DNA of 64,000 nucleotides from Lutibacter agarilyticus (GTDB lineage: Bacteria; Bacteroidota; Bacteroidia; Flavobacteriales; Flavobacteriaceae). This document shows, in pieces, positions 21,141 through 23,969 of this stretch. Made by a program: the position numbers and the translations under genes. The stretch lies in the NCBI RefSeq assembly GCF_900188235.1, contig NZ_FZNT01000005.1:62001-126000 (forward strand), in the 5' to 3' direction. Position 1 is the stretch's first letter. Every line of letters begins with the position of its first letter. Below the pieces are notes generated by a model. It did no database searches, had not been told where the DNA came from, and was given only the letters and a program-made list of their open reading frames with translations.

Positions 21141-23969
21141 ATGAAACAAAAACGTCTTTTTCTTTTAGATGCTTATGCATTGATATTCCGCGGTTATTAT
21201 GCACTTATTAAAAATCCAAGAATTAATTCTAAAGGGCTAGATACATCTGCCATATTAGGTTTTACCAATTCACTTTTAGATGTTATCAAACGTGAAAACC
21301 CAGACCACTTGGCTGTTGCCTTTGATAAAGGCGGCTCTCATATTCGCTCTGAAGCATTTCCAGAATACAAATCAAACCGACAAGAAACACCTGAAGCTAT
21401 TAAAATTGCAGTACCTTATATTCAAGAAATTTTAAAGGCAATGCATATTCCTATTATTGAAAAAGAAGGTTTTGAAGCCGATGATTTAATTGGCACGCTT
21501 TCAAAACAAGCTGAAAAAGCTGGATACCAAACTTTTATGGTAACACCTGACAAGGATTTTGCACAATTAGTTTCTGAAAACATATTTATGTACAAACCCT
21601 CACGTATGGGTAATGGTATTGAAATTTGGGGAATCCCAGAAGTACAAGCGAAATTTGAAGTTGAACGACCAGAACAAGTGATAGACTATTTAGGTATGAT
21701 GGGAGATGCCGTTGATAATATCCCCGGATTACCTGGTGTTGGAGATAAAACTGCCAAAAAGTTTTTGAAAGCATACGGAACCATGGAAAACTTATTTGAA
21801 CACACTCATGAACTAAAAGGTAAAATGAGAGAGAAGGTTGAAGCCAACAAAGAACTTGGCTTGCTATCTAAAGAATTAGCTACAATAATGTTAGACTGCC
21901 CTGTTGAATTTCATGAAGAAGATTATTTATTAAATCACCCCGACTTAGAGAAAACTAATGAGATTTTTAAAGAGCTAGAGTTTAGAAGAATCGCAGACAG
22001 CTTACCAACCATTTTTAAATCGTTCCCAACAATTGACGGAGAAAAAATTGAGTTAAAAGTTGAAAATACTAAAAACACTACCCAAACAGCACCAACATCA
22101 GAATCACATCAATTCGATTTATTTTCAGCACCAAGCACTGCAACTGAGATTGTTTCTGGATATCAGACTATTGAAAATAATAATCAGTTATATCAGTATG
22201 TAGACACAGCTTTTTCAAGAAAATTACTTTTACAGAAATTAACAGAACAACCATCCGTAGCTTTTCATATTGAAACTATAGGCGCCAATTGTTTTGACGC
22301 CGCAATTATTGGCATTTCATTTTCGTATGAAAAAGGCAAGGGCTACTTTGTTACCATAAATACAGAAAAACAAACTGAAATTTTAAATGAATTTAAAGTG
22401 TTTTTTGAAAATTCAACCATTGAAAAAACAACAACTGATAGTAAATATTTTATCAAAATATTGCACAAATTTAATATTGAATTAAAAGGAAAACTTTTTG
22501 ACACAAGGCTTGCGCATTACTTATTACATCCTGATATGCGCCATGATATTAGCGTACTAGCAGAAACCTATTTAAACTATCGCCCGTTAACTTTAGAGTC
22601 CTTAATTGGTAAAACAGGGAAAAATCAACTTTCACTTCCACAAATTGAACTTTCAAAACAAGCTAACTACGCTATTGAAATAGCAGATATTTCATTTCAA
22701 TTAAAGCAAATTTTTGAAAAAGAGCTAGAACAAAATAATTTAACCAAATTATACACTGAAATTGAACTACCAGTACTTCGTGTGTTGGCTGCAATGGAAT
22801 TAGAAGGTATTAAATTAGATGATGTATTTTTGAATTCATTGGCAGACGATTTAACAAGTGATATTAAAAAATTAGAAGAAACCATCTATAAAGAAGCTGA
22901 TATTGAATTCAACTTAGCTTCACCAAAGCAATTAGGCGATGTGCTTTTTGAACATCTAAAATTGGTTGAAAAACCTAAAAAAACGAAAACAGGTCAATAT
23001 GCTACAGGAGAAGAAATCTTATCAAAGTTAGCTCCTAAACATCAAATCGTTAAAGATATTTTAGAATGGAGAAGTTTAGTCAAACTAAAAAACACCTATG
23101 TTGATGCATTACCAAAAGAAGTAAATCCAATCACTGGAAGAATACACACAACCTATAGTCAATCGGTTGCAGCAACTGGAAGATTAAGTTCTAACAACCC
23201 CAATCTTCAAAATATACCTATTAGAACTGAGCGAGGCAGACAAGTTAGAAAAGCATTTGTACCAAGAAATGAAGAATACACCCTAGTAGCTGCCGATTAT
23301 TCTCAAATTGAATTACGTATCATAGCTGCGCTAAGTGAAGATGAAAGCTTGATAGAGTCTTTTAGCCGTGGTGAAGATATTCACGCGGCAACGGCAGCTA
23401 AAATCTTCAGAATAAATTTAAATGAAGTAACTCGTGAGCAACGTGGAGATGCAAAAGCTGTAAACTTTGGTATTATTTATGGGCAAGGCGCATTTACGTT
23501 AGCACAACAATTAAACAAATCACGTGGTGAAGCAAAAGAACTTATTGACAATTATTACAAAACTTTCCCAAAGCTAAAGCAATACATTGCAAACCAAATA
23601 GAATTTGCACGAGAAAACGGCTATGTAGAAACTATTTTAAACCGACGTAGGTATTTAAAAAACATCAATTCACAAAATGCCATAGTTAGATCAGCAGACG
23701 AACGAAATGCCGTAAATGCACCTATTCAAGGTAGTGCAGCCGATATTATTAAAATAGCCATGATTAAAATTCAACAACTACTAAATGAAGGAAATTACAA
23801 GTCTAAAATGCTATTACAAGTGCATGATGAATTGGTTTTTGACATGCATAATAGTGAAATAGAATCTTTAAAAACACGCATTAAAAATGAAATGGAACAT
23901 GCCTTTAAACTTTCAGTTCCATTAACGGTTGATTTAGGCGAAGGAAAAAACTGGTTAGAAGCACACTAA
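21141..23969 (+). CDS. polA: DNA polymerase I with a degenerate proofreading domain
   Basis: Repair and Okazaki-fragment polymerase, 942 residues. The 5'-3' exonuclease domain (about 1-290) looks intact (LLDAYALIFRGYYA, FEADDLIGTL, MGDAVDNIPGLPGVGDKTA). The polymerase domain has motif A DYSQIELR, motif B with RGDAKAVNFGIIYG, and motif C VHDELVFD. The 3'-5' exonuclease domain (about 345-525) keeps its fold (GKLFDTRLAHYLLHPDMRH) but not its catalytic residues. The Exo I D-x-E is H376-I-E378. The Exo II Asp is F437 in SKYFIKIL. Exo III Y-x3-D is Y510-AIE-I514. Proofreading is therefore probably lost. The gene stands alone between the surface cluster and rplM. Confidence 0.97.
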   Translation: MKQKRLFLLDAYALIFRGYYALIKNPRINSKGLDTSAILGFTNSLLDVIKRENPDHLAVAFDKGGSHIRSEAFPEYKSNRQETPEAIKIAVPYIQEILKAMHIPIIEKEGFEADDLIGTLSKQAEKAGYQTFMVTPDKDFAQLVSENIFMYKPSRMGNGIEIWGIPEVQAKFEVERPEQVIDYLGMMGDAVDNIPGLPGVGDKTAKKFLKAYGTMENLFEHTHELKGKMREKVEANKELGLLSKELATIMLDCPVEFHEEDYLLNHPDLEKTNEIFKELEFRRIADSLPTIFKSFPTIDGEKIELKVENTKNTTQTAPTSESHQFDLFSAPSTATEIVSGYQTIENNNQLYQYVDTAFSRKLLLQKLTEQPSVAFHIETIGANCFDAAIIGISFSYEKGKGYFVTINTEKQTEILNEFKVFFENSTIEKTTTDSKYFIKILHKFNIELKGKLFDTRLAHYLLHPDMRHDISVLAETYLNYRPLTLESLIGKTGKNQLSLPQIELSKQANYAIEIADISFQLKQIFEKELEQNNLTKLYTEIELPVLRVLAAMELEGIKLDDVFLNSLADDLTSDIKKLEETIYKEADIEFNLASPKQLGDVLFEHLKLVEKPKKTKTGQYATGEEILSKLAPKHQIVKDILEWRSLVKLKNTYVDALPKEVNPITGRIHTTYSQSVAATGRLSSNNPNLQNIPIRTERGRQVRKAFVPRNEEYTLVAADYSQIELRIIAALSEDESLIESFSRGEDIHAATAAKIFRINLNEVTREQRGDAKAVNFGIIYGQGAFTLAQQLNKSRGEAKELIDNYYKTFPKLKQYIANQIEFARENGYVETILNRRRYLKNINSQNAIVRSADERNAVNAPIQGSAADIIKIAMIKIQQLLNEGNYKSKMLLQVHDELVFDMHNSEIESLKTRIKNEMEHAFKLSVPLTVDLGEGKNWLEAH

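Follow-up and report, generated by a model that had tools for sequence, protein, structure and literature searches.

The polA gene of Lutibacter agarilyticus, which lies within the 64,000 nucleotides of contig NZ_FZNT01000005.1 analysed here (the window), raises the question of what becomes of a DNA polymerase I (Pol I) when the catalytic residues of its proofreading site are replaced. A first-pass annotation of the locus had offered two readings, a repair polymerase without editing or a domain kept only as scaffold. We followed the residues, the domain and the other fidelity factors through the genus, the family and, for the site itself, the phylum.

Domain architecture and active-site residues

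PolA combines the Pfam domains for 5'-nuclease, 3'-5' exonuclease and polymerase in a single chain, each above its cut-off, and is the sole chromosomal Pol I ortholog, one that relatives share; on both counts it is a PolA1, the ordinary DNA polymerase I (Table 1). The only DNA_pol_A match in the L. agarilyticus genome is PolA itself, and the search with this profile returned no second, intact Pol I. Residue equivalences were taken from a phmmer alignment of PolA with the E. coli Klenow chain and follow E. coli numbering. Three of the four catalytic carboxylates are substituted in this alignment, and with three of the five residues of the active DEDDy set (D355/E357/D424/Y497/D501) replaced, PolA falls, by its sequence, outside the active enzymes of this type. 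E. coli Pol I retains all five residues, whereas PolA has only the equivalents of E357 and Y497. Positions near the active site have changed as well, with D433 for N420, I470 for M458 and L485 for F473. The first-pass annotation had assigned H376, E378, F437, Y510 and I514 within positions 22255-22690, which encode residues 372-517, and these assignments and coordinates proved correct.

Its further statements, that the exonuclease fold is kept and that the motifs of the other two domains are intact, agree with our data. DNA_pol_A_exo1 matches PolA with 75 bits at a Pfam cut-off of 23.6, the AlphaFold2 model has a mean pLDDT of 84.2 overall with block means of 75-96 over residues 351-530, and Foldseek aligns PolA to Klenow (1kfs) with a TM score of 0.91 (by target length) and an rmsd of 2.8 A. 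In this fold, and in its polymerase motifs (motif A DYSQIELR, motif C VHDE and the fingers residues R768/K772/Y780), PolA resembles E. coli Pol I.

Table 1. Features of the L. agarilyticus polA locus, with positions in the window
Feature	Position	Strand	Basis
polA, DNA polymerase I, 942 aa	21141..23969	+	ORF; sole PF00476 match in genome
5'-nuclease domain, residues 1-290	21141..22010	+	Pfam, 181 and 111 bits
QFDLF, residues 324-328, candidate sliding-clamp-binding motif in disordered linker	22110..22124	+	Family rows; pLDDT
3'-5' exonuclease domain, residues 352-531, fold retained, active site lost	22194..22733	+	Pfam, Klenow alignment, AlphaFold2, Foldseek
H376, replaces Exo I Asp (E. coli D355)	22266..22268	+	Klenow alignment
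E378, Exo I Glu (E. coli E357), retained	22272..22274	+	Klenow alignment; 31/31 Lutibacter rows
F437, replaces Exo II Asp (E. coli D424)	22449..22451	+	Klenow alignment
Y510, Exo III Tyr (E. coli Y497), retained	22668..22670	+	Klenow alignment
I514, replaces Exo III Asp (E. coli D501)	22680..22682	+	Klenow alignment
Polymerase domain, residues 560-942, catalytic motifs present	22818..23966	+	Pfam, 533 bits
Fingers patch, residues 773-809, eight conserved residues co-switched in Lutibacter	23457..23567	+	Conservation comparison

Distribution of the loss

Within the genus Lutibacter, 37 of 38 genomes (own included) gave a PolA match. By manual tally of the 30 genus rows that were read (our own P0001 plus L003-L031), the Exo I Asp and the Exo III Asp are each missing from all 30 and the Exo II Asp from 27. 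A sequencing or assembly error, which had been named as a possible refutation, is thereby practically ruled out, as the same losses recur in the 29 other genus rows, which come from other genomes, and the frame is open throughout. Rows L032-L038 are also Lutibacter (NCBI family Flavobacteriaceae), at 73-82% identity; L039 and L040, likewise titled Lutibacter, share 68% identity and have an intact exonuclease site.

The alignment across Flavobacteriaceae that the first-pass annotation had proposed revealed an altered site in 28 of 249 evenly sampled genomes (3 unreadable). A PolA match was found in 248 of them, and the Exo I DNA pattern was present in 213 and absent from 36. From the latter, 33 could be read, with an altered catalytic carboxylate in 28 and an intact site in 5; the other three comprise the genome without a PolA match and two with fragments missing part of the site. 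By manual tally the 28 genomes are spread over 24 of 235 genera. This survey screened the Exo I DNA pattern only, so that a loss of Exo II or Exo III in a pattern-positive genome escapes it; the 24 pattern-positive rows that were read are all intact. Among the 152 de-duplicated family rows, 95 retain all four carboxylates. Beyond the family, the rows read from a 118-genome phylum search are intact in 27 of 28 cases up to class level (own excluded, ten of the 28 being family members) and in 21 of 21 cases from other classes of the phylum (row sums by hand). The first-pass view of PolA as a single odd protein therefore has to be given up: the loss is genus-wide in the rows read, recurrent in the family and common in bacteria (PMC12926913).

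On a tree of the 152 rows, built with linker and exonuclease domain excluded, the site appears to have been lost repeatedly within the family, 7 to 13 times depending on the support cut-off. Fragmentary or broken rows (L167-L170, of which L168 is exo-lost) and 13 near-identical rows had been left out beforehand. On the full tree 13 changes are counted, with as many all-lost clades, and collapsing weak branches at SH-aLRT 70, 80, 90 and 95 reduces the number of losses to 11, 10, 9 and 7, respectively. The range is this wide because this is a single-gene tree with weak nodes and with long branches from small genomes. When the fingers patch was removed as well, 13 losses were still counted; in this patch-free tree the 31 Lutibacter rows form one clade (96.1) with the exo-lost L113 as sister (68.9), and in the first tree Lutibacter forms a clade only together with L113, with poor support (19.1).

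Fate of the exonuclease domain

In the lost lineages, the change in evolutionary rate is specific to the exonuclease domain. Calculated without the five active-site columns, the ratio of exonuclease to polymerase branch lengths is 1.00 for intact and backbone branches, 2.04 for Lutibacter with L113 and 2.27 for the other lost rows, and the corresponding 5'-nuclease ratio shows no rise (0.68, 0.47 and 0.52). Terminal-branch comparisons gave p = 6e-5 and 4e-7 on rows that are not independent. Median dN/dS values, from pairs that are likewise not independent, are 0.11 for the exonuclease, 0.08 for the polymerase and 0.04 for the 5'-nuclease domain in 64 Lutibacter pairs, and 0.04, 0.04 and 0.03 in 22 intact pairs. 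With a median of 0.11, selection on the Lutibacter exonuclease domain is relaxed yet present.

The decay is centred on the active site. The comparison covered 71 exonuclease sites at which at least 95% of intact rows agree. In Lutibacter, 47 of these persist in at least 90% of rows, 14 fall in between and 10 survive in less than 30%. These ten (374, 376, 377, 380, 433, 436, 437, 470, 485 and 514, equivalent to A353, D355, T356, D359, N420, Y423, D424, M458, F473 and D501 in E. coli) flank Exo I, II or III or correspond to M458 and F473; we take N420, Y423 and F473 to form the lining of the primer-end site. The F-D-T...A-H-Y-L...P-D-M-R-H segment is mostly retained in Lutibacter rows (T455 in 52%), and so is K435. 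Y510 is retained in 30 of 31 rows. For comparison, 125 of 129 conserved 5'-nuclease sites persist in 90% or more of the Lutibacter rows.

PF01612 scores separate the two groups of 30 genomes each, with at least 111 bits in intact and at most 98 bits in lost genomes. The exo-lost PolA of L160, L164, L165 and L159, from genomes of 1.6-2.2 Mb, is far more eroded, at 23-32 bits. The GC3 medians of polA are 0.28 in intact, 0.20 in Lutibacter and 0.28 in other lost rows; base composition as a cause was discarded, as the lost rows share no trend. As a separate observation, E378 occurs in all 31 Lutibacter rows, its partner Asp being gone from every one, and in 5 of the 26 other lost rows.

Linker motif and fingers patch

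The linker between the 5'-nuclease and the exonuclease domain is poorly conserved except for one fixed peptide, QFDLF, and its residues 296-338 have a pLDDT below 50 in the AlphaFold2 model, that is, they are predicted to be disordered. The pattern Q..[LIM]F is found in 149 of 152 family rows. Shuffling the linkers 200 times gave a mean of 2.4 rows and a maximum of 7. It is kept in 54 of 57 exo-lost rows; all three rows without it (L154, L165, L166) are exo-lost. Further out, all 28 rows sampled as far as the level of the class carry the pattern, against 6 of 21 from the phylum's other classes; the class of the window in GTDB is Bacteroidia. The peptide resembles the clamp-binding consensus QL(S/D)LF quoted in the available text of PMC11139829, where such a motif is defined as Q-phi-x-[L/M]-[F/L] within a disordered region and phi is aliphatic; it departs from this at position 2, which in PolA and in most family rows is F, a residue that is not aliphatic. 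Binding of E. coli Pol I to the clamp has been reported (PMC6010275, text available in part), and the clamp table in the accessible part of the review gives neither a motif nor an affinity for it (PMC11139829). Among the matches listed in our literature search, as far as their text was available, no clamp motif of this type was described for a Pol I ortholog.

A second feature concerns the fingers, where the otherwise conserved positions 773, 782, 783, 786, 788, 791, 793 and 809 have switched together in Lutibacter. No site outside the exonuclease domain other than these eight combines conservation in at least 95% of intact rows with retention in less than 50% of Lutibacter rows. The corresponding QG..T state occurs in 36 rows, 34 of them exo-lost and mostly of one clade, and 23 exo-lost rows do not have it. 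Tight coupling of patch and exonuclease loss was rejected, as separate lineages give it no support, and the data point only weakly to a causal tie between the two. Most patch residues are also seen in rows of unrelated lineages, L048 and L061 (exo intact) and L117 and L120 (exo lost). The L061 patch deviates from its Aquimarina relatives, and its codons 780-799 are nearest to Lutibacter rows (80-83% DNA identity); an old exchange of a short segment and convergence are both possible.

Other fidelity factors

Searching 30 genomes yielded 29 rows of the replicative polymerase DnaE1, which begins with a fused DnaQ-type exonuclease domain. All 29 rows agree on the His and the Asp of Exo III in this domain, and 27 of them show D at the Exo II Asp position; the other two rows, both from exo-lost genomes, begin at Exo II, where the column is unreliable. 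The own DnaE1 has the Exo I (DTE), Exo II and Exo III motifs, Exo I having been read in this copy only. The PHP domain of the same protein (L201, contig C20; relatives L171-L199) contains TDSGN and looks atypical.

For gene content, 30 exo-lost genomes were set against 30 intact ones, 22 of the latter read at the site and 8 classified by the Exo I pattern alone. MutS_I is matched in 59 of the 60, including all 30 exo-lost genomes; the only one without a match is exo-intact, and a loss of mismatch repair was thus dismissed. A tie to Y-family polymerases was dismissed as well, the counts being alike (57 matches in lost and 55 in intact genomes). RNase_T matches amount to 134 in lost (3-7 each) and 112 in intact genomes (2-6 each). 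The own genome contains no stand-alone DEDDy exonuclease, as its one PF01612 match is PolA, and compensation by such an enzyme finds no support in the wider set, in which weak second PF01612 matches occur in lost (G033, G158, G164, G270) and in intact genomes (G152, G202, G213, G215). The motifs of the DnaE1-fused DnaQ domain and the retention of MutS would argue that any rise of mutation in gap repair, as suggested by the first-pass annotation, is small.

A probable non-editing Pol I with a scaffold domain

Our data make it highly probable that PolA is a Pol I without editing whose dead exonuclease domain is retained as scaffold: the absence of editing would follow from the dead 3'-5' exonuclease site, and the scaffold role from the retained constraint, the predicted fold and the motif-centred decay. 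To this extent the first-pass interpretation is supported, by the alignment and by fixation in the genus as well as by the pattern of decay and the constraint elsewhere; its picture of an isolated case is not. PolA would act as the ordinary cellular Pol I, with the 5'-nuclease stripping primers and flaps and the polymerase filling short gaps, and a wrong nucleotide would most likely be irreversible owing to the dead site. The exonuclease site was probably lost in the Lutibacter ancestor, as the Exo I and III Asp are gone from all genus rows read and the Exo II Asp from most. Thereafter the surroundings of the active site would have decayed under continued selection on the remaining domain, for which the simplest cause would be its role as a structural part of the Klenow body. 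Errors in the short PolA patches would be left for mismatch repair, bulk replication would keep its own proofreader in the DnaQ-type domain fused to DnaE1, and QFDLF in the flexible linker probably tethers PolA to the sliding clamp at nicks. Some findings speak against this reading: E378 and Y510 would not be needed by a wholly dead site, the 14 intermediate sites indicate decay beyond the cleft, RNase_T matches are somewhat more frequent in lost genomes, and the fingers patch is left unaccounted for.

We consider it improbable that the loss was selected, with a non-editing Pol I favoured for mismatch extension and lesion bypass and thereby for survival or mutation supply. The recurrence of the loss would fit, and Pol I of H. 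pylori, which does not edit, is able to extend mismatches, copies past lesions and contributes mutations (PMC3121766); the same was proposed for inactive Pol I in the available part of PMC12926913. However, Y-family counts are nearly equal, MutS is retained and the rate change resembles relaxed constraint. A still less probable cause lies in the fingers, where the patch may have reduced strand displacement, which would have made exonuclease idling at nicks unnecessary and left the site free to go. The eight switched residues are the sole sites of this kind outside the exonuclease domain, 34 of the 36 rows with the patch state are exo-lost, and mitochondrial Pol gamma needs its exonuclease for ligatable ends (PMC4557304, text available in part); but most of the 34 rows belong to one clade, the patch occurs next to an intact site in L048 and L061, and it is missing from 23 lost rows.

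There is very little chance that the site is still active with altered ligands (H376, E378, Y510) or on another substrate. The retention of E378 (31/31) and Y510 (30/31) would suit such an activity, yet the genus shows H, Y or N at residue 376 and, at residue 514, N, I, F, K, S, Y or others, which leaves no fixed substitute, and adjacent residues have decayed as well. Editing for Pol I in trans by another nuclease is just as doubtful: the surplus of RNase_T matches in lost genomes (134 versus 112) is set against the finding that the own genome is without a stand-alone DEDDy exonuclease.

Relation to known polymerases

An exo-dead Pol I is a known kind of enzyme. Taq, Bst and mycobacterial Pol I are examples with an inactive DEDDy site. 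According to the accessible text of PMC12926913, the DEDDy motif is substituted in about half of PolA1 proteins; the distribution largely follows phyla, substitution being most frequent in Firmicutes, Tenericutes and Actinobacteria, and is enriched in anaerobes. H. pylori Pol I was predicted from its sequence to be non-editing, showed no editing in the assay and is a source of mutations, and E. coli without Pol I editing has a lagging-strand mutator effect (cited in PMC3121766, available in part). Lutibacter PolA shares with such PolA1 enzymes the order of 5'-nuclease, vestigial exonuclease and polymerase and the substituted carboxylates (PMC3121766, PMC12926913). In contrast to the largely phylum-specific losses in the available text of PMC12926913, the loss in Flavobacteriaceae is recent and recurs within a family in which the intact site is the norm, and QxxLF lies in the linker. 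What our analysis adds is a fine-grained repeated loss amid an intact family norm, a decay centred on the active site, and an adjacent clamp-type motif. No study of this enzyme was found among the matches listed for Lutibacter and DNA polymerase.

With the actinobacterial PolA2/APEX proteins, Lutibacter PolA has in common an inactive exonuclease domain together with a QxxLF motif; however, PolA2/APEX has no 5'-nuclease and carries the motif in a loop of the exonuclease domain, whereas Lutibacter PolA has the 5'-nuclease in Pfam and the motif in the linker (PMC12926913, partial text). We give even chances to the wider proposal, drawn from sequence comparison, that Pol I is tethered to the clamp by the conserved linker motif throughout the class, and that in Lutibacter and several other lineages it is non-editing too, in convergence with PolA2/APEX. 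The conserved QxxLF offers a one-peptide test of clamp tethering of Pol I across a large bacterial class. Moreover, dead and intact enzymes stand repeatedly side by side in one family, so that the cost of the loss becomes measurable with close pairs, which bears on the question why many bacteria dropped Pol I editing.

Besides, the own contig C13 carries, outside the window at about 136-139 kb, a second DnaE-type polymerase (989 aa frame) that adjoins a Y-family polymerase. This pair is like the DnaE2B-PolY arrangement described in Bacteroidetes in the available part of PMC12926913.
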